Of a stretch of 64,000 nt of DNA, positions 411 through 38,576 are shown piece by piece; the first letter of the stretch is position 1; each line of letters starts with the position of its first letter. Under the pieces are notes generated by a model. That model was not told the DNA's origin, ran no database searches, and saw only the letters and a list, made by a program, of their open reading frames with translations. This DNA is from Pratylenchus scribneri. Lineage: Eukaryota; Nematoda; Chromadorea; Rhabditida; Pratylenchidae. The stretch covers positions 219,001 through 283,000 of the forward strand of contig JAQSEB010000166.1 of NCBI GenBank assembly GCA_030063045.1, in the 5' to 3' direction. A program made the position numbers and the translations under genes.

Positions 411-3400
411 TCATTCAATATCATCGCCATCTTTGTTGACATTCCCCTCGGCTGGATTTTTAATTCCGCCTGAAACTTCATCGACCGATTCTGTTTCTTT
501 CTCATTTGGGACTTCAACATTCTGTTTTGTTTCATCATCTTCATTGACATCAACGTTTTTTCTTACTTCTCCATCATCATCTCCGGGATTTGTTTCCGAT
601 GGGATTATTTCTTCCTCTTCAGGGTGGTCCAATCCTCCTCCTAGTTCCTTCTTCCCATCTTCCTCATCTTCCGCCTTTTGTGGTTTACCGCCGAACTCAT
701 CATCCGGGTCAACTGAATTGTCTGATCGTTGGATGATTGCTTCATTGTCAGGTCCCTCATCTTCTTGTTCATGTACTTCAGCTGAGGATCGTGCCGATTC
801 TTCGCCTCGTTGTTCAACGTCGTCTTCGATTCCGCCGAAACTTGCCCCATTCCGATTGCCTCTTGTCAGTGCTAAAAATGAGAAAATATTGAAAAAATTT
901 TTATAAATTTAGATTATTTACCATATTAATATTTAATAATCTTTCATTTTGTTTATGTTCTAGTCGATTTTAAATTGGCCATTTTTGGACCAATTTTGTT
1001 TTCGGCATATTTTAATTCAATTTAACATATATCTTTACTCCTAATCTATTCGATTGAGTCAATTTGTTCACATAATCTAATTTTCATATAGATTTATTCA
1101 GTTTAACAACCTTAAGCCATAGCCTAAAAAATTTCTAACTTTTAAATCGGTTCAACATTTTAAAAATTAAAGAAATCTGGCTAGAATTAGTAAACATTTT
1201 TCAAAGAATGAACTTTAATCAGTTGCAGTTCTCAATTAGAAATGACCAGAGTTCATAAGTTACAATTTCCTATGTTAATTTTGATCAATTGAAATCAAAA
1301 TCGGCTTAGCGTATAATTTGTTTCAATTTAATTGAATTAACTGTTCACTCCTTAAATATTGATAAATTCAAAATAAATTACGCAAGGAATCATCATCCGA
1401 TTCATTTCGCTGCTCCTCGTCCATTCCGTCAAATTGATTATATGAATCCGATGATTCATTCTGGCCATTTTGGCTATCCATCAAGTGCGCATATTCTTCT
1501 TCGTTATGCTGCTCTGGTACATTATGATTTCCATGATTCTGTAAAAATATAAATATTCAATGTGATTTTACATTACTATCATTTTTGCATGGAAATATTG
1601 AATACCAAATACAAATGGAACTCTGCATTTTTTCAATCATTAAATAAGATTAATTATATGTAGAAAGCCATTAGTCGTAATTAATTATTACTATAATATT
1701 TTTATCGCCCATATCGCCATTAATTAATAATTTTAGGCTATTTTCTACAAACCAATATTAAACTCGAAATATGGCACTCCACTCAAATTAGTTAAGGGAT
1801 TCATTCTGTTGCATTGCGTTTATAGACTAATTTATTGACGGATTCTTTGCTCTCGATCTCAACTTATAATTCTTCTACAAATTATCGTGGATTTTCTATC
1901 CATTGATAGATTTGACAGGTAAATATTTCTAAAAGGCAAAGAAAAGAGGCATCAAATTGATTTTTATTTTCAATTATAATTAAGAATTGCCCTTTTTATG
2001 ATAATATTTGAATTAAATTCATATTTAGCCTAAGAAGATATTCTCTCTTCAGATTATCTACCATAAAATTCATAAAAATTAGGAGGTTTTTTTCATTTTA
2101 TATTTTTTTAATTAAAACCTCAGATTTTTGATGCAGTGAATGTGGCTCCGGGATCATCACATGGTCAACTCCACTATAGTCAAATTTAGGGTTTTTGTGC
2201 GATTTGTCGGTATGACTCGAAGGCACACTGTTTCCTCCATTATGCAATTTGCCGGTGGGACTCGGTGGCGCACTGCCATGACCATGATGATGGCTATCGT
2301 TTCCATGACCAGTGCCTCCTACTTCTAAAAAATTGAAGTAATATTGAATTTTTAAAGCTTAATTGTTGTTAAATAGCTAATGGCATTTAGCGTTTATCAA
2401 AACTGTTTTATCTTATCATATGTTACAATAATTAAATATGTAAAAAGAACAGTCCCAAAACTTAGTAGATGCTTCAAAGCTCCTATAGATTTCTTTGGTT
2501 TTTCACAAATGAAATACTACAAAAGAAAAATATTTAAGAAATTTGGGTATGGGTATTGTGTAGTGATAGTGATATTATAACTGATTAAATCAATCGAATT
2601 ATGGGGCTTTATTCTTTTTCATTTATATCATTATAACCGTTTTTACTTTTTAAGCCCATTTTACGACACTTAATAACTTGTATTCAATTTCGATAGAGCT
2701 AAAGTCAAGATGTGCCTCTTGGTCTATAGTTATTCGCGGTTTTGTCATCATCGAAAGTATTAAAAGTCTATACCGTTTTTTTTATCTAAATCAAAATTAC
2801 CGATAAATTCTCTAATAAAAGCCCATCCTGGGCTTATAAATTTCAGAGGTCCTGCGAAGGGAAACTTTTCTGAAATTTTAAAACAAAAAATGTTTATTTC
2901 GGCTTAATTTCACATTTAAATTGGTTATTTTTGACATAAATTTTTCGAGAGATGGGCTTCTAATAGAGCCTGGGCTTCTATAAGAGGATTTACGGAAATA
3001 TACCCGAATTGATGCATCTCGATGAGCTATAGAATAGAAAGTTTAAAAGTTTTGAAGCTTTCAATAATAAATGATTTCTGGGTAAAAATTCTGACTCTTA
3101 GAATCAGTCATAGATGTGAACAATTTGAACTGATTATCCAAATTAATATCTTAGTTTTCAGTCTTCAATCTCTTATTAGAAATTGAATCAAAAGAAAAAA
3201 CTTACGGATTGAAGGAACTTCATGTTTACCACCTTTCTTCTTTCCTTTGGCTTTTTCTTTTGCCGCTTCTTGGTGCACTGCTGATTTCGATGCATGTTTA
3301 ACCTCGGCATCCTTTTTCAGCTTTTCTATTTCCTTTTTATGCGCCTCTTTTCCAATTTCGGTCTCAATCAATTTTTTCACATGTGCTTTATCATTTTTGT

Positions 3401-4578
3401 CCAATTTGCCCACATCATGCTCATGTTTTTTCATTTCTTTTATAACATTGTTCATAGCCGTACCTAAAAGTAAGATGAGGAGAATATTTATTAGCAGATA
3501 CGATTTACTTTGAATATTTCCTTGTATTTTTCCAGCTTCGACCTTTTTCTTATTCTTCGTTGTTTTAATTGCTTCTTTGACTGCTTTTTCCACTTCTTTC
3601 TCTAAAATTTCATTCTTTTTAAATGCAGTCTGAATATCCGATTCCAACAATTTTTTCAATTCTTCTATCGGCAATTTTGCCGCTTTCGCATAATTCTTTT
3701 TGTTTTTGGCACCTTTTTTCTGTCCTTCTTCATTACATTTCTTATGGAGTTGATCTTAAATAAATAAGAATTACAATGTTATTATGAAAAATTATCACAA
3801 ACCGATGATATCTTTCTCAAAGGCTTTCAAATCTTCTTTTCCCGCATGCTCTTTGTGATGTTGTTGATCCTTGGCCGAATGCTTTTGTTCATAATGTTTG
3901 GCTATCACTTCATTCAACGCCTTTTTGAGAAATTCCATTTCTTTTTGATCATGTTTTTGCCCCGCTTTGTGAGTTGGACTGCTAGGAGGTTTCACCGCAG
4001 TAGGCTTTTGAGTTTTCTTTTTGCCAGCACCGGCGGGAGTTGCCGCAGCAGGTTTCGGTTGAGTTTTCGCTTTTCCATGTGTTGGGCTGCCTGGTGGCAC
4101 AGCAGCATGATGATTCGGTTTAGTTTGCTTCGGTTTAGGTTTGCCTTTCTTTCCTTCAGCATGGGCATTCGCTTTAAAAATAAATAATTTCTCTTGAATT
4201 TCATATCCCAATTTAAAAAAAGGTTTAATTTTCAGAATGTACATCAGAAAGACAGTTATTGAATTTAACTCATTTTTAAAGGTTTATTTTAGCTTTTTTT
4301 TGGCTATTTGATGGGAAAATGTATGAAAACTTAACCTAAATTTCAGATTTCAACTTTAATATTATGGAGATGGAACAAATTGGGCACCCCAATATGACTG
4401 CAAATCAATTAATTTCTTTTAATTAGGCTAATTTTAATTAATTTTTTTTTGAAAAAGTTTATGAGAAACCGAATTTTCCCTATTTTTACATTATTATCAT
4501 ACCGCATTGTAGGAATTCAACCAGAACAATGGCACTGATTAAAACAAAAATTGTCAAAAATTTGCTGTTTGGGAACAT
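411..4578 (-). CDS. Secreted lysine-rich/acidic low-complexity protein
   Basis: Function unknown. Seven exons on the minus strand: 4578-4503, 4171-3803, 3754-3509, 3463-3206, 2324-2119, 1538-1382, 871-411. All junctions are GT-AG and in phase, giving 590 residues. Exon 1 codes a 25-residue signal peptide (MF start, hydrophobic LTIFVLISAIVLVEFLQC). Next comes a Lys/Pro/Ala/His region (about 26-148), then a lysine-rich, probably coiled-coil region (to about 310) with many EKEVEKAVKEA-like stretches. A Gly/His/Ser-rich segment follows, and the last 153 codons are strongly acidic and end GDDIE. The charge thus changes from strongly positive to strongly negative along the chain. The leader exon closely resembles that of the RNase H-like gene at 38513-38576. 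I recognise no domain; secretion is inferred from the leader. A shorter form could end by reading through the 1382 donor to a stop at 1368. Confidence 0.8.
2800..2995. repeat. Inverted-repeat element (MITE-like), family CCGTAAATCCTCTTATAGAA
   Basis: Lies in intron 4 of the secreted charged protein gene. The left end reads CCGATAAATTCTCTAATAAA followed by AGCCCA, and the right end is its imperfect inverse. The element at 23085-23350 has closely similar ends. There is no coding capacity. Confidence 0.6.
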
Positions 4579-5090
4579 CGGAATTAATTTTGGATATAAA
4601 TTATTTGGTTGGCTTTTTGGATTGTTGATGTGAGCGTTTAGGCCTTTGATGGGTGGAGAAATGGGGGATCTGACGGGAAAAAGTGAGGATTTTCCCTCAA
4701 AGCTAGGCCAAATTTATGGGAACCATTTTGCCTAAATGATAGAATATGGAAGAACGCGCGCATCCAATGAATTGTGGATGATGTGACCTACCGATATTCG
4801 GGACGCGGGAAGGCACTTCAATGCCCCAACCTTCCACTTTCCCTTAAATCTCGGCATTTTCTCCTTAAAAATTCCCTCTTTCTTTCACCCCTTAAGACAA
4901 AATCGCCAATAAGCACTGCTGGCAAATTCTGATAGGCCAAAATGCCGCACGCGAACATTTGTCCTCTCGCTTTTTCCATTCTCTCAATCAAGCAGGAGAA
5001 ATTGGTGGCCTCTTTCCATCTTCCCCAAAATGTAAATAGGCATTGGCCAATTCCATGACCAACAAAAATGACGTGAGGACATATACAATT
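4579..5090. repeat. Duplicated flanking DNA, copy A (upstream of the 411-4578 gene)
   Basis: No gene seen. About 4820-5075 (ending with a GACATGT-like GGACAT run) matches 5820-6105 in the same order, including shared stretches such as GCCGCACGCGAACATTT and AATTCTGATAGGCCAAA. The part at 4590-4810 matches 17266-17440 (GCGCGCATCCAA and GAATTGTGGATGATGTG). As it abuts the start of the secreted charged protein gene it may contain its promoter; that is inference. Confidence 0.55.
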
Positions 5091-5391
5091 ATTTTGTGGT
5101 TATTTATAAATTCGACTCCTTCTTTTGAAGTGCCGAACTTGAATATAGCTAGTTTTGCATGTAATACAATTTTGCATGTAATACAAAAGTAAATAAATAA
5201 ATAAAACAATTTTATTTATTATTATGGTTAAATTTAGACTTATTAAGATTCATGGTTAAGCTAATGTTTAAGACATCAATTTTAAAATAATTTACAACTT
5301 AATTTTCAACTGTACAATGAGAGAAACCAGAATTCATACGGTCGCCGGTTTGGGCCGTCTGTGCGAGTTGGCTGTTAGTAGAGTAGGCGAA

Positions 5392-5816
5392 TTGTGAGAC
5401 ATCGCGGGTGGACGTTTCAGCGTCGGCCGTTTCAGCGTCAGCGATTTTGACGAGTCATAACTCAGCAAAGAAGAAACCATTTGAGACAATTTTGGTATCA
5501 TTGGATAGAGCTAATCAAACTCTATTAAATGATATATAGCAATTTATGAAAAGTTAAATATCCTCTTAATTACAAGCTTCTAAGTAAGAAAAAGCGACTT
5601 GTATTCAGTTTTTCGACTTAACTTTTTCGACTTTAAGTCACTTAAATTTTCATTTATCCAAAAAGCTTTATCCACTTTTCAATAGAGTTTGATTAGCTCT
5701 ATCCAATGATACCAAGATTGTCTCAAATGGTTTCTTCTTTGCAGAGTTATGACTCGTCAAAGTCGCTGACGCTGAAACGTCCGACGCTGAACCGACCCCC
5801 ACCCGTGATGAGACAT
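5392..5816. repeat. Long inverted repeat containing TTTCAGCGTC words
   Basis: The left arm begins near GAGACATCGCGGGTG and includes GTTTCAGCGTC, GACGAGTCATAACTC and GGTATCATTGGATAGAGCTA. The right arm is the inverse, ending at 5816. The centre is near 5600. The arms carry the recurring ATAACTC and GAGCTAATCAA words discussed in the findings. Confidence 0.7.
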
Positions 5817-5819
5817 ATC

Positions 5820-6110
5820 CACATCGCTTTTCCCCCTCCCTCTTCTTCAATCCCACATTTCCCTTATAGAAAATTCCCTTTTTCATTCACTCCTTCTTAA
5901 GGCAAAATCGCCAATAAACACAGGCAAATTCTGATAGGCCAAATCCAAAATGCCGCACGCGAACATTTTACTCCCTCTGGCTTTTCCCATTCTCCCAATC
6001 CCAATCGAGGCGAAATTTGGTTGCCTCTATCATCCATCATCCCCAATGTATAAATCGGCAATGGCCAATTTATGGCCAACCAACATGACGCTATAGGGAC
6101 ATTTTATTTC
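5820..6110. repeat. Duplicated flanking DNA, copy B
   Basis: Matches 4820-5075 in the same orientation, with small insertions and deletions (GCAAAATCGCCAATAA, GCCGCACGCGAACATTT, GGCCAATTTATGGCCAACC). A weak echo of the last phrase is at 7140-7165. No gene seen here or in 6111-6456. Confidence 0.55.
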
Positions 6111-6456
6111 TCCCTTCAATTCAATTTTTCTCCTACATTTCTCCGATTCTCTCTCAAATCACATTCAAGGGGAGTGGGGTGATCAACCGAAACTATTTTG
6201 CCTATTTTTTATAGGGAGAAGGAGAAAAATTGTGGTAAAGGAGAGAGGCAATGAAATGTCTCGAAAGTGCATTGTTGGCCAAAAGTTGGCCAATTAATCA
6301 ATAATATCAATTACCTTTCTAGCCGATTTGCATTTTGCATAGTGGGGAATGAAAAGGTGAAATGAAGGAGGTAAAATTCAAGGTTGCCGGATTTTGCAGA
6401 ATTTGGGAACAAAATTAAAAGAAGAGATTTAAGGCTGTATAATGACTGGTTGGCAC

Positions 6457-6847
6457 CAGTGCTGTGCATCAGCTATTTTGAGACCCAGCCCCGGCCCCAG
6501 GTCCCGGCTTTTCAGAATTTTGGCCCCGGCCCCAGCCTCGAGGCTTAACTCTTGGCCCCGGCCCCAGGACGTCCGGGGCCGGCCCCGGACAAATAACTAA
6601 AAAAAATCAAAGAAATTTTATAAAAATTATTAAATTATTTAATGTATTTTTTATTTTTAACTATCTATCCTTGAAATATAACGATATTTCCATTATTTCA
6701 TTTTCAAAAAATATAATTTAATCCTTCAAAATCAAAATAATGACCATAATTTTTGTTAAATTCAGGGCCGCCCCGGGGTTGATCCGACCTTCATAAAGTC
6801 GGCTTCAACCCCGGGGCTGGTCCGGAGCCGGGGCCCGCGCATCACTG
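6457..6847. mobile_element. hAT-like non-autonomous element with GGCCCCGG-rich ends
   Basis: It starts CAGTGCTGTGCATC and ends GCGCATCACTG, imperfect terminal inverted repeats of the CAGTG type common in hAT elements. Both subterminal regions are very GC-rich (repeated GGCCCCGG) around an AT-rich core, unlike the surrounding DNA. I could not find a convincing 8-bp target duplication. No transposase is encoded. Confidence 0.55.
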
Positions 6848-7479
6848 CTTATATGATGGTCAATAAAATGGGGAGATTAGAGAGAATAGCATCCATAATA
6901 ACGTTGCCCTAAAATCATCCGTACAAATTTACAGATCACTCGAAACATTTTCGTAAGTTCACCTGTAAATATTATTTAATAAGCAAGCATTTTATAAATT
7001 CTGACTGGCTATCATTTTTCTCTTTATATCTTCCCTATATTATTTCTCTAAATCAAGGCAAAAAAATTGTTTTACTTTTTTTCGATTCTCTCATAATTTT
7101 TTCAATGCAAATCGGCAATGAAGCAAAAATAATTGAGATTGGCCAATTTGTGGCCAACCCGGACCCTCATAACGGAGGAATGCAACAATAAGAGAGCAAA
7201 TTTTGGGAAATTTTGGAAATAATTTAAAGATCTGAGATATTTTGAAAATATCCCAAAAATGACTCAAATTATTCGAATATTTTGACGATTACCAATTATT
7301 TATAAAATTCATGTTTGAACTAATTTTGTAAGAATTAGAAAATAAAAGAAAAAATAATTTATCAAATGAGTGAAAATTGTGAAAATATTTTCAAAATGAT
7401 ATCAAATTGCGATGATATATTGGGAATTGGAAAATTTCTCAGAATATCTCTTGTTGCTAATTATAAAATGAGTTACATA

Positions 7480-7640
7480 ATAATTTTGATTTTGAAATGA
7501 ATTGTGAAAATGAGTTACAAAATATTCTGAAAATGAGATTCATTTTCAGAATTCATTTTCTGTCTCGTTTTCTTATTCAAACGAAAATGAATTTAAAAAT
7601 ATATTCTGAAAATGAGTGGTATTTTTAAAATTTATTTTGA
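7480..7640. repeat. Short AT-rich repeats of the GAAAATGAG.TCATTTTC type
   Basis: Alternating direct and inverted copies of a GAAAATGAG / CTCATTTTC core with TCAGAATTCATTTT spacers. The same family makes the 79-bp tandem array at 13935-14300. Confidence 0.5.
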
Positions 7641-32603: not shown

Positions 32604-34950
32604 TCATTTCGTACAAAAGCCACGGTTCATATCAACCAATCCCGCAAAGCCGGGCACTTTGGCACTATGCGTATATTGCCACATTTTCCATTGGTTAAAG
32701 CCATTTGGCAATTTCTCCCGGGGGAGTCCCAGATAACGTTGATACACATCGGACAAAAGGCTGGCCACCCAAAGCGGGTATCGATCAAATGCATAACTCT
32801 GCCATTGGACAATGTCATTCCATTCCTTGTTTGTGTAGAGAAACAAATTCTGGAAACCGGCATTTTCCAACAATTCCATCAATGCCCATAAATTGTCCGC
32901 CATCACTTTTGGCTATTTGAAGAAAAAAAAATTAAAATTTTGGTTAGTGGAATCATTTTTGAAATTTAAAAATGTGGATTGTGGACTCATCCAAGATTTC
33001 ATCTTGGTGAGGCATTACGAACAAGTTGCCAAATGTAACCATATCGGTAAATATTGGCACTGGGCCTACCAAGATTGGCTTTTTAAATTAACAAAAACAG
33101 AAAAAAATTCTAAATTTGTCACAAATAAATTGCATTTTTGTGAATTGAAAAATTTATTGAATGAATCAGATAATTTTATATATGAATTAGTAAAAATAAA
33201 AGCACATTATTAATAACCTACATTAATGCCCCGATTGTACATTGGCTCAACATCAATGGCCAAAATTGATGAATCCAAATTGAATTTGACTTGTTGCAAT
33301 GTATTTTGAATGTTTTTGAGTTGCATTGAAACGGAACAATTTCCAATAAAATAATGATAAGCGTGTGGGCTTATTCCATTTTGCAATGCGCCATTCCAGT
33401 TTGCAACAAAATTTGGATCCACAAATTTTTCTCCTTGTGTTGCTTTGATCATTGCGAATTTGACTTGGACACTTTGTTGCGCTGTTGCCCAATCAATGGC
33501 ACCATTATGATGGGAGACATCGACGCCCTCCAAACAATCATCGCTGCCTAAAATTAAAAAAAAAAAAACAATTTGAAATGACATATTTGTTGCAATTAAA
33601 TTCCGGTATTTATTAAAAAGATGCTGGTAGAGACTAGAATAGGTTCATCATTCTATTCGGCAATTTCGATTTAATTTATGAAATTCAAAGTTCAAACTTC
33701 AGACTGATATTAATGCTTATTAGGAAATTTAGCAAACCAAAAACGATTTTTGTTTAAGCAACAGTTCATTTTTTTCAAAACAAGCTCAAATTGAGCCGAA
33801 TCGAATGAGAGCCTTTTCCAAAATTTATAAGATTAGCATCTAGTATATTCTGGAATTTACTAATTTCCGATAATTTTTATAATAAATTTACGCACAACAT
33901 GCATTGATTCTTATTTCTGGAGGTGACACACACATTGGATGCTTTTTATCGATATTGTGAATGCAAGATTGACTGAAACCTTCCGATCCACATGGACTTT
34001 TGCCTGTGGAATTTGTGGAAAATTAAGAATGGGAATAAAATAATTTATTGGAATAATAATTGTGCTGTTTCATTTTGAATTAATTAATTTAATCTTTATT
34101 TATTTTAATTAATTTAATCTTTATTTATTTTATTTTTATCCAATTTCTTAAACCTTATTTTTATTGTAAAGCACTTTCCCATTCACCCAAATCACTCTCC
34201 TGTCATTCATCCATCCTCCTATCTTTATGTTGTAAACCCCTTTTGCATTGCCAAATCCCCTTTCGATGTCCAGTGTCCAACTTCTCCTTCTGGTGATTAT
34301 TCTTATTTTTTTCGTTATTTCCCAATTCATCCCGCCCAATTTCTTGACCTATTAACTACCCCTTTCCATAATGCAAGCACCTTTATTCTCGACCCACTTT
34401 TATCCTCTCAGTTGAAAATTATTTATTTATCTCAGCTTGAAGCCATTTTAATAATATTTGATTATATTTTGGAAATAAAGCCTTTGGGAAAATTGAATCA
34501 AATTAGAAGGGTTTGAGAGTTTGATATGAGAATCGTAAGACTCGGAGTGAGCAATAATTATTCGAGAATTCCCTGGTAATGCTAAAAGAAATGCCAACAG
34601 AAAATTTTTTTTTCATTTATTGAAAAATTGTTTAGAAAATTTCTAAAAAATCGGGGAAATTGTATTTTATAATTAATTACGATTTGATTTGTTTTTAATT
34701 TTTTAAATAAAAAGGGATGTACTATAATTTGATTTACATACAGCATTGATTGTTGTAACTCAAACAATATGAATCCGCAGGACAATCCGATTGTTTGACG
34801 CATACTATTAAAATAATTACTTAATAATATTTTTTTTGATTTAATTATACTTATTGGATCCAAATAGCACAAAATTTTACAATCAGCAGCATACACGAAA
34901 TTGACAAAATTCAGCAGAATTAATGGCAGAAAAATTAAAAGAATTTTCAT
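32604..34950 (-). CDS. Secreted GH25 lysozyme with cysteine-rich N-terminal region
   Basis: GH25 enzymes cleave peptidoglycan and serve nematodes in digestion or defence. Five exons: 34950-34851, 34804-34742, 34003-33899, 33547-33222, 32912-32604, all GT-AG and in phase, giving 300 residues. A signal peptide (MKILLIFLPLILLNFVNFVYA) precedes about 70 residues with many cysteines (DCKILC, CVKQSDCPADSYC, NNQCCKSPCG, SCIH, MCVSPP). The GH25 domain starts at CLEGVDVSHHNG (Asp99). It continues with FAMIKATQGEKFVDPNF, HAYHYF, the catalytic pair Asp188/Glu190 in ILAIDVEP, NLFLYTNKEWND, and the C-terminal WKMWQYT and GLVDMNRGF. All expected active-site residues are present, so it is probably active. 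The start could also be the ATG at 34977 in the same frame. The cysteine region is not a domain I can name. Confidence 0.88.
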
Positions 34951-35800: not shown

Positions 35801-36205
35801 GGTCATCTCCACAATAGATAAAGGGCTATGCAATTATGGGCATGTCCACAATTCTGCAATTATAGGCGTTTTCGATTTATAACAAGTCAGAAAGTGGTTT
35901 TAGACCCCACAGACCTTATACCATTTTGTAGATCTCATCGAGACGCATCGAATGGTATATAATTTGTCAGGGTTTAGTCAAAATTAAATGGTATTAAACC
36001 ATTTTTTAAGTTTTTGGTTTTAAACTCTTTAATTTTAGGCCAAACCATGACAAATTATAGACTATTCGATGCGTCTCGATGAGATCTACAAAATGGTATA
36101 AGGTCTGTGGGGTCTAAAACCACTTTCTGACTTGTTATAAATCGAAAACGCCTATAATTGCAGAATTGTGGACATGCCCATATTTGCAGAATTGTGGAGA
36201 TGACC
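35801..36205. repeat. Long inverted repeat
   Basis: The arms read GGTCATCTCCACAATAG... and GGGCATGTCCACAATTCTGC, TTATAGGCGTTTTCGATTTA and GTAGATCTCATCGAGACGCA, mirrored about a centre near 36005 (TTAAACCATTTTTTAAG). Layout as in 8533-8955 and 19815-20178. Confidence 0.85.
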
Positions 36206-36534: not shown

Positions 36535-38576
36535 TTATCTATTGTGTGCTCCATTGTTCGCCAATTGTTTAGCCTGATTATTGCCATAATCGCGGAAATT
36601 CGTTTTTTCGAATCTAACTTGAATTTGGCCCATCAATTGATTAAATCGTCTCAACAATTCTCGATTTCCTATTAACATTCTCTCCAATGTATTTATATTC
36701 AAATTTTGGAGAGATGAAGTCAACTTATTATGGAAAAAAAATTAATTATATTTTTGGATTGGATTTGGAATTATTTAAATAATTCTGAATTGAAAATGTA
36801 CCGAATTAATCATTAAATCTGATTCAGTGCGAATGATCAAAGCGGGATAGCGTCTTGTCACAACAGCCTTCTCAATTGCATTAATTGCAGCCAAATATTC
36901 TGCCTTTTCGCAGTTTTCTATATACCCCGGAATTGATGCCGACACATTGTCCGGATGCCTATCTCCCCAGAATACGCCAATTCCTCCCTTTCCTGCAGGT
37001 AAACCATTGATGCAGTGACCAGCCGTATAAACAATTGGAATTCCTTGGACGGTTTTATAATCGTGAATATTCTCTCTGACTCCATTCCAAGCCAATCGAT
37101 AAGCCTTCCTAATGCCATGATCATCGGAATTCCTTTCATCTTTTTGGAATTCAACTTGAATTCGATCCATCAATTGTTCTAATTGTTCCAATAAATCCCG
37201 ATTTGCCACTGGCTCGCCATCATTTTTGTGCCATCCATTTGCCTTCCAATTTTGGATCCACAAAGACAACTTATTAATGGAAGAAAGATTGAATGACAAT
37301 ATTAATTGTATTTTTTGCGATAAATCAAAATAATTTGATATAATTTAATTAAAATTTTACCAAATCTATCATAAAATTTGATTCTGTGTGAATGATCAAA
37401 GCGGTATAATCCCTTTCCAAAGCCCTCTGCATTGCATTAATTGCGGCCAAATATTCTGCACGATTGCAGGTAACTTCACCTTGAATTGGTGCCCCCACAT
37501 TATCAGCTGGATGTCCATTGCCCCAGAACACGCCAATTCCTCCTTTTGCTCTTTGTGGACCATTATTGATGCAGACTCCAGCAACATAAACTATTTGCTC
37601 TCGGTTTTGCCTATTTGAAGAGCCTGAAGCTAAATTTTACAAATTTTTTGTAATAAGTATAATTATAGAATAATTTTTTCTTGTTCAATTTTTGATGCCA
37701 CTCAACCCTATAAAAACAAACTTTGTATTAATTTTAAAAATTAAAATTTTTCCTATATATATTGAGTTTGATTTCGAAAATTGCCTTTTCCAGGAAAAAT
37801 TTTGGGAATCTAGGCTTCTAGGCAATCCGACCAGAATAAACTCAGTCGACATCGACATGCTCGTTTTAGTTTATAAAATTTCAATTTCAGACCGGTTATT
37901 ACGGTATAGGTGAATGTTAGCAAATCAAAACCGGTTTTGGCTTAAACAATGCTTTACTTTTTTAAAATATGCCAAACAGGTTTGAAAAAATTTTTTAAAA
38001 AATCGATCATGCTGAATAGAATAAACTATTTTCCTATCTGTACGAATTCTTGAAATCGAAATTCTCAAAATCGGCCATCTAAAGTACTGGCCTTTTACAA
38101 TAAAGGCTGATTTCAAAATTGGCCGTAAATATATATTAGGTATAAAAATATATTTTCTCAGGTTTTTTGAATATATTAAAGAAAAAATTCTAGCACATCC
38201 ATTGCTCTGTCCCATTTAAATTTGAAATATAATAGGTTACTTTGAAATTAATAATGTTAATTTTCTCCCAATTAAAATAAAATGACTAATTTGTCAACCT
38301 CTTGCATTATCTACAATGAAATACATTGCTTCTTCTTGGGTAAAGCATTTTTGGTATCGGGCATTACCAAAACCGTAAATTTGTGGATAACATTCCTCCC
38401 ATGAATTGTATATGCCACGTTTTCTTCCTCGAGCAACAGCATAATATACTGCGTCACCTAATAATTGTTCGAAACTTTGATAGAAAATTAATTAAAATAA
38501 ACAATTCCATACCGCAGTGTAGAAATTCAAGCAAAATAGTAAGGACAAGAGTTAGAGTTTGGCATTTGGAAAACAT
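36535..38576 (-). CDS. Secreted RNase H1-like protein with HBD and two catalytically defective RNase H folds
   Basis: RNase H1 normally cuts RNA in RNA:DNA hybrids in nucleus or mitochondria. Five exons: 38576-38513, 38457-38299, 37629-37361, 37269-36802, 36723-36535, all GT-AG and in phase, giving 382 residues. Residues 1-21 are a signal peptide (KCQTLTLVLTILLEFLHC). A hybrid-binding domain spans about 25-70 (YYAVARGRKRGIYNSWEEC, then GFGNARYQKCFTQEEA). Two RNase H folds follow, about 86-235 and 241-382. Of the four catalytic acidic positions, the first fold has Ala91, Glu133, Glu157 (Asp usual) and Tyr221; the second has Ala247, Glu288, Glu313 and Lys372. Only the Glu is kept in each, so hydrolysis is unlikely. 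Scaffold motifs survive (GGIGVFWG, AEYLAAINA, WIQNWKANGWHKNDGEPVAN). It may bind nucleic acid without cutting it. The leader exon resembles that of 411-4578. Confidence 0.88.

Follow-up and report, generated by a model that had tools for sequence, protein, structure and literature searches.

RNase H1 has housekeeping duties in the nucleus and the mitochondria, and loss of the aspartates from its catalytic D-E-D-D set abolishes RNase H cleavage. The gene that we analysed on contig C166 of the nematode Pratylenchus scribneri has in common with human and other eukaryotic RNase H1 enzymes a hybrid-binding domain (HBD), the RNase H fold, the order of these domains and, in our tree, a place beside the intact RNase H1 of the same genome. 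It departs from them in that its product is predicted to be secreted, that the RNase H part is doubled, that both domains (D1 and D2) have lost the catalytic histidine and carry changes at three of their four catalytic positions, and that it lacks one of the introns of the intact gene.

An inactive RNase H1 serves as an R-loop sensor in the R-ChIP procedure, where its HBD and RNase H fold bind the hybrid without cutting it (PMC7888926). This tool is man-made and intracellular, whereas the C166 protein is natural, predicted to be secreted and endowed with two altered folds; in the wider scenario that we consider unlikely (see below), the dead C166 form would be nature's equivalent of this laboratory trap for hybrids. 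In its logic, the predicted-secreted C166 protein resembles the RALPH proteins of Blumeria (CSEP0064/BEC1054), in which a plant parasite secretes an RNase fold devoid of catalytic residues; CSEP0064 associates with RNA (PMC6464244, PMC7857584). The RALPH proteins possess a fungal RNase T1/F1-like fold and no HBD, whereas the fold of the C166 protein is that of RNase H. With respect to the evolutionary route, the GS-like effectors of cyst nematodes provide a parallel, as a housekeeping gene was duplicated, gained a signal peptide and changed its activity (PMC5919673). The enzyme concerned is a different one, and it is for these effectors that gland expression and delivery have been demonstrated.

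Tandem RNase H1 folds are also present in a 552-residue protein of Ditylenchus destructor (P0128), whose first copy reads D-K-D-H with an Arg at the position of the histidine, so that doubling with partial inactivation occurs elsewhere too. Unlike the C166 protein, P0128 starts with MPYYAVARG and is leaderless; it contains three HBD-like stretches, as judged by eye, and its second copy reads D-E-D as far as aligned. We assume that this tandem, which lies outside our tree, originated independently. Among the open-licence papers listed for secreted or inactive RNase H1 in nematodes and for effector RNases of Pratylenchus and Meloidogyne, none describes a secreted or inactive nematode RNase H1. 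An RNase acting as an effector is absent from the main texts of PMC7585316, PMC8601627, PMC11309470 and PMC4684371, in which the term occurs only for a reagent or within 'RNAseq', and passages of a review (PMC12861698) add nothing further.

Gene structure, leader and domains

The window referred to here is the whole stretch of 64,000 nucleotides from position 219001 to 283000 of contig C166, and our searches covered an assembly of 276 contigs with 227,248,964 bases, which was published with 276 contigs and 227.24 Mb (PMC10138993). Splicing of five exons on the minus strand yields a protein of 382 amino acids with no internal stop codon, and all four introns are bordered by GT and AG. The five-exon model of the preliminary description had given the same 382 residues, with all eight residues named there at positions 91, 133, 157 and 221 and at positions 247, 288, 313 and 372. 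The features are, in the order of transcription:

Exon 1, 38513..38576, minus strand: leader MFSKCQTLTLVLTILLEFLHC, a predicted signal peptide with the hydrophobic core TLVLTILL
Intron 1, 38458..38512, minus strand: 55 nt, GTATGG..TTAG
Exon 2, 38299..38457, minus strand: RNase H1 HBD, by PF01693, by sequence match to 3bsu and 1qhk and by fold match to 3bsu_A
Intron 2, 37630..38298, minus strand: 669 nt, with a dispersed repeat at about 37798-38134
Exon 3, 37361..37629, minus strand: first half of D1 with A91 (for Asp), E133 and E157 (for Asp)
Intron 3, between exons 3 and 4 (37361..37629 and 36802..37269), minus strand: GT..AG
Exon 4, 5' part, within 36802..37269, minus strand: second half of D1 with Y221 (for Asp), His lost
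Exon 4, 3' part, within 36802..37269, minus strand: first half of D2 with A247 (for Asp), E288 and E313 (for Asp)
Intron 4, between exons 4 and 5 (36802..37269 and 36535..36723), minus strand: GT..AG
Exon 5, 36535..36723, minus strand: second half of D2 with K372 (for Asp), His and handle region lost; stop codon

Exon 4 is thus a single exon that fuses the second half of D1 to the first half of D2. No in-frame ATG precedes the HBD core in exon 2, and an upstream exon is therefore required. The hydrophobic leader encoded by exon 1 stands in frame with the HBD, in line with the secretion proposed in the preliminary description; its maximum value over eight residues on the Kyte-Doolittle scale is 2.8 (from a hydrophobicity scan only), and one basic residue (Lys) precedes its core. 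From this leader, the C166 protein is predicted to be secreted. Mitochondrial targeting is a less likely role, given that only one Lys precedes the hydrophobic stretch and that intact RNase H1 starts inside its HBD exon. The donor site that follows exon 2 (GTTGAC) is weak; the same point reads GTTAAT in the intact RNase H1 gene on contig C2 and GTTTTC on contig C50. Retention of intron 2 would lead to an immediate stop and to a product consisting of the leader and the HBD. Frame breaks and lost splice sites, the marks of a pseudogene, are absent from the C166 gene. The dispersed repeat within intron 2 (37798-38134) has longer copies of 69-78% identity on many contigs.

The HBD anticipated from inspection of the letters is present and folds as expected: it is recognized by PF01693 (6.3e-16), aligns by sequence to 3bsu and 1qhk, and its predicted model (pLDDT 92.9, 22 alignment rows) lies within 0.4 Å of the human HBD with bound hybrid (3bsu_A) across 45 columns. 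Residues Y27, W41, Y56 and K58 of the C166 protein align with human Y29, W43, F58 and K60. We take W43 and F58 to be contact positions for the hybrid in the human domain, further to Y29 and K60. The latter two are among the hybrid-contact positions described for the human HBD (PMC7657459). At the position of human K59, the C166 protein carries a Gln, and the net charge of its HBD is +1, versus +6 in both the intact paralogue and the human domain. The RNase H domains have net charges of -3 (D1) and +4 (D2), versus +6 for the intact RNase H domain, and the WxxxW..NGW handle is kept in D1 and lost from D2. The lowered charge of the HBD, the acidic nature of D1 and the loss of the handle from D2 would speak against tight binding.

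Both RNase H folds can be traced across their exons. PF00075 matches the exon-3 frame (1.2e-8) and, in two stretches, the exon-4 frame (3.3e-12), and phmmer aligns both halves of D1 and the first half of D2 to human RNase H1 (2qk9). The exon-5 frame alone has no Pfam match; it is 61% identical over 44 amino acids to the three intact RNase H1 copies of the genome (tblastn), and the second half of D2 was assigned by this match together with the family alignment. A repeat protein of 1343 amino acids that ranked first in one of the phmmer comparisons owes its rank to the sum of 14 weak repeats and is unrelated.

In place of D-E-D-D, the catalytic positions read A-E-E-Y in D1 and A-E-E-K in D2, exactly the sets listed in the preliminary description; three of the four positions are changed in each domain, and the catalytic histidine is lost in both. 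An intact D-E-D-D at some other place in the folds, which had been raised as a possible objection to inactivation, is not seen for D1 or D2 in the family alignment. D-E-D-D is present, by best local alignment, in 211 of the 229 relatives (P0004-P0232) listed by three homologue searches, which include the best 120 of 2042 and the best 120 of 212 matches. Gaps at one or more catalytic positions occur in 14 of these 229, and four have a substitution among positions 2 to 4; a substitution of the first Asp was found in none, with a gap there in two. Judged from the missing Asp residues, the C166 protein is predicted to have lost the ability to cleave RNA:DNA hybrids.

Descent from RNase H1 and a second leader-bearing family

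Searching the genome with the HBD profile returned 13 matches, namely three intact RNase H1 genes, the dead type on contigs C50 and C166, six loci of a family that we refer to as S1, and two exons beside a DEAD_2 helicase. The intact genes (contigs C2, C47 and C187) possess D-E-D-D and start with MKYYA within the HBD exon; their loci are 89-92% identical across 7 kb, with a summed omega between the copies of 0.04-0.10. The RNase H1 of M. hapla is only 54% identical. When 25 RNase H domains, C50 not among them, were placed in a tree, D1, D2 and the intact C2 gene grouped together (support 99/97) with tip lengths of 0.65 for D1 and 0.71 for D2, versus 0.049 for the intact gene. The branches of D1 and D2 are hence more than 10-fold longer than that of intact RNase H1, so that the C166 gene presents itself as an enzyme that lost its active site, was doubled, and changed more than 10 times faster than its parent. 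The dead type lacks the intron present inside the first half of the RNase H domain of the intact gene. By its place in the tree, the C166 gene descends from the housekeeping RNase H1 of this genome; the HBD, the introns and the tree speak against an origin from the RNase H of a retroelement. One PF00075 match elsewhere in the genome (contig C37) looks retroelement-like by its frames.

The preliminary description had placed inactivation before the duplication of the RNase H part. This order is borne out by the exchange of the first Asp for Ala, which is common to D1, D2 and C50: because the single domain on C50 also has Ala there, the loss of this Asp likely predates the separation of the copies. 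At the third catalytic position, D1 and D2 have Glu and C50 has Lys. A late tandem duplication, with D1 and D2 as closest sisters, is the worst of the three topologies when C50 is included (free-omega lnL of -1737.05 with an inner branch of 0, versus -1731.58 and -1732.42; one inner-branch omega in this comparison ran to its bound and carries no meaning). From these likelihoods and the inner branch of zero, the order of D1, D2 and C50 is near a three-way split. The tree without C50 pairs D1 and D2 at 99/94, which is no test of their sisterhood against C50.

The six S1 loci are situated on contigs C16, C22, C9, C181, again C22 (C22b) and C164; their positions are L023 2184-4814, L024 2141-4769, L025 2372-4682, L028 2067-4049, L029 1982-2608 (minus strand) and L030 2401-4052. 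A signal-like peptide, MKKLQ..LLFFLFQLLL or MEKL..VLLLLFLILQNASA, opens the HBD exon in five of the six (C16, C22, C9, C181 and C22b); since it shares one exon with the HBD, no guess about splicing is involved in this leader. No leader was assigned to C164. The S1 genes keep FTDG/YTDG, GELHA or EELLA, IMTD and QADRL wherever the exons are present, and D-E-D-D is found without visible defect in C22, C9, C181 and C164, the last with Arg for His. The last exon of C22b is missing from the fetched stretch, and exon 3 of C16 seems out of register with exon 2. Going by these features, C22, C9 and C181 would encode predicted-secreted, predicted-active RNase H1 enzymes. The likely donor of exon 2 reads GC for GT in three of the four S1 genes examined. 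Pairwise omega over exons 1 and 3 is 0.16-0.28 among C16, C22 and C9 and 0.62, at low divergence, between C181 and C22b.

Together with P0127 (source label lgn), the S1 genes form a separate clade (100/100) on a stem of 1.94. P0127 is 57% identical to C181 and shows no leader; its model (mean pLDDT 72.7) has an RNase H fold in the C-terminal part and a long unstructured N-terminus, and it matches human RNase H1 (2qkk) with an E-value of 9.4e-11. P0129 (137 amino acids, source label lgn) corresponds to the N-terminal part of an S1 protein and has a leader of the S1 kind. If both leaders work, a secreted type of RNase H1 would have arisen twice in P. scribneri.

The HBD exons beside a DEAD_2 helicase, which we take to be of the XPD/FANCJ type, closely precede the helicase exons in two copies on contig C22 that are separated by about 20 kb (L026 2001-2470, minus strand; L027 2271-3665, plus strand), and the HBD is possibly fused to the helicase there. 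A third RNase H1-like group (L036 1755-2810, minus-strand count; L037 2323-3010) is leaderless and has an HBD-like start (MSHYFYAIKSGQHRGIYW... on L036) that was missed by the Pfam HBD search; by eye, L036 reads D-E-D-D.

Homoeologous copies and selection

The flanks of the gene within the window match contigs C50, C15 and C126, with identities of 83-92% for the longer pieces and of 76-77% or 94% for some short ones. Contig C50 retains an HBD and one RNase H domain that reads A-D-K-T and is thus dead as well; each of these exons is Pfam-positive. The ATG on C50 leads to a stop after eight codons, and the frame entering the HBD has no ATG. C15 keeps the upstream sequence and, with an ATG of its own, a leader similar to that of C166 (MFSNCRILPLVLVVLLEY..; L033). 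An element of about 6 kb then breaks the copy within the leader exon (L033 about 895-7480); it has repeated ends, by which it is LTR-like, and contains long open frames, and neither HBD nor RNase H was found in the fetched stretch. On C126, no part of the gene was found between the flanks. P. scribneri has been estimated to be diploid (PMC10138993), with which the four syntenic contigs for the flanks (C166, C50, C15 and C126) and the three for RNase H1 do not obviously agree.

Where C166 and C50 align, exons 1 to 4 are 72-74% identical and exon 5 is 85.7% identical over only 21 bases; the corresponding values are 73.5% for the upstream region, 74.7% for intron 3, 58.6% for intron 2, and up to 94% farther out. 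By these figures, the exons are no better kept than nearby noncoding sequence.

We applied a codon model to the RNase H codons of six sequences, of which 138-143 are comparable between dead and intact forms, under three topologies. Omega is 0.07 for intact RNase H1 and 0.35-0.39 for the stem. The C50 domain evolved at 0.24-0.29, with 2dlnL against an omega of 1 of 12.5, 14.7 and 9.9 over the three topologies. For D1, omega is 0.49-0.67 and does not differ significantly from 1 (2dlnL of 3.1, 3.6 and 0.8), and for D2 it is 0.87-1.45 (0.01, 0.10 and 0.46), without purifying selection; the pairwise value between D1 and D2 is 0.85. The HBD gives 0.62 on C166 and 0.38 on C50, neither of them significant with up to 52 codons. 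What stands of the purifying selection considered in the preliminary description is therefore the constraint on the C50 domain; D1 and the HBD do not reach significance and D2 shows none. In the C166 lineage, constraint on D1 is doubtful and D2 is either free or diversifying.

About 0.6 changes per codon have accumulated on each of the D1 and D2 branches. When neutral drift was simulated from C50, D1 stayed free of stops in 41 of 3000 runs, D2 in 25 of 3000 and both in one of 1500, and from C2 the numbers were 38 and 25 of 3000; these runs scored stops only, and indels were not counted. Since drift alone leaves both domains stop-free in one of 1500 runs, the C166 gene is not an old pseudogene. 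The constraint under which the equally dead C50 domain evolved suggests that a dead copy was useful, and the dead fold is likely to have been useful on at least one lineage.

Possible function and competing explanations

Orthologues with the same A/E/E/(Y,K) pattern in related nematodes, as envisaged in the preliminary description, did not turn up among the matches listed: neither an orthologue nor a leader-bearing tandem is present among the three proteins from a full-length search of 2453 candidates or among the best 120 of the 212 profile matches, which came from 5652 candidates and of which eight full sequences were examined, plus one from another search. As expected for a plant parasite, the genome has 27 matches to the pectate lyase family PF03211. 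The effector gland promoter motif of P. penetrans is absent within 600 bp of the C166 gene. Of eight leader-bearing loci that we scanned, two have it within this distance on the reverse strand, which is close to the background rate, as against none of the three intact RNase H1 genes, so that a gland-effector promoter signature lends no support. Even in P. penetrans, just 12 of 30 new effectors carry the motif (PMC7585316).

We tentatively favour, as a reading that is quite possible, that the C166 gene encodes a recently evolved, secreted pseudoenzyme, likely a non-cutting binder of RNA:DNA hybrids or dsRNA outside the worm's cells. RNase H1 would have been copied, the copy would have gained a leader exon and lost one intron and the first catalytic Asp, and the doubling of its RNase H part would have preceded, or followed shortly upon, the divergence from the C50 copy, whereupon D2 would have been freed to change. 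Binding may proceed via the HBD and possibly D1, and a target in plant tissue is suggested by the plant cell-wall enzymes that the genome carries. For the hybrid or dsRNA decoy put forward in the preliminary description, the HBD contact positions speak in favour, kept as Y, W, Y (for F) and K; the fall of the HBD charge from +6 to +1, the acidic D1 (-3), and the lost handle and missing constraint of D2 weigh against it. A wider scenario, which we consider unlikely, holds that RNase H1 turned secreted twice: first in a family whose cutting residues are retained, and more recently in a doubled and dead hybrid trap, the latter shielding hybrids or dsRNA from host sensing or silencing in plant tissue. 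Should secreted forms be active in roots, a candidate target of nematode secretion would be found in hybrids or dsRNA, and with residue-keeping and dead families in one worm, this idea could be tested side by side.

Less probable than a secreted binder, and the main rival to it, is a decaying duplicate that is still open, serves nothing and is to follow the C50, C15 and C126 copies into loss. Damage or absence on these three homoeologous contigs fits such decay, as do the omega of D2 near 1, the values for D1 and the HBD not significantly below 1, and the failure of the full-length and profile searches to find an orthologue among the matches listed. Yet exons, splice sites and stop codon have all survived the roughly 0.6 changes per codon on the branches of D1 and D2, which both domains are expected to do in one of 1500 runs without constraint, and the dead C50 domain has been under purifying selection. 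Damage to C50 also bears on whether the leader belongs to the protein at all, as the leader frame of that copy is out of register with its ATG. That the leader lies outside the protein, with a product that stays inside the cell or begins at a different start codon, is nevertheless very improbable, because the HBD exon needs an upstream exon, exon 1 joins it in frame via the 55-nt GT-AG intron, and a similar signal-like peptide with an ATG can be read on C15.

Two further explanations accept secretion and assign the protein a different partner, and we regard each of them as quite improbable. The C166 protein might be a dead competitor that tempers S1 by occupying the same substrates or by pairing with those predicted-active enzymes, for which there are six loci, five with a signal-like peptide, and D-E-D-D in C22, C9, C181 and C164. 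A catalytically inactive form of human RNase H1 leaves the hybrids that it binds unresolved, and competition with the endogenous enzyme could result (PMC7888926). S1, however, forms its own clade (100/100, stem 1.94), and it and the dead type did not arise together. Alternatively, the RNase H folds might hold another protein in a secreted protein-protein module from which nucleic-acid binding is gone; the lowered positive charge, the loss of the substrate handle from D2 and the fast change of both domains agree with this, whereas the preserved HBD fold and contact positions argue against it.

Two other features of the window lie close to the gene. An exon of the GH25 lysozyme type (33213-33584, minus strand; PF01183, 1e-18) with a hydrophobic start is located 3 kb downstream of it and has no tblastn match in the fetched stretches of C50, C15 and C126. 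At 35801-36205, there is a 405-bp inverted repeat, 86% identical to its own reverse complement, which constitutes a foldback-type element that is also present on C126 (L035 1597-2007).
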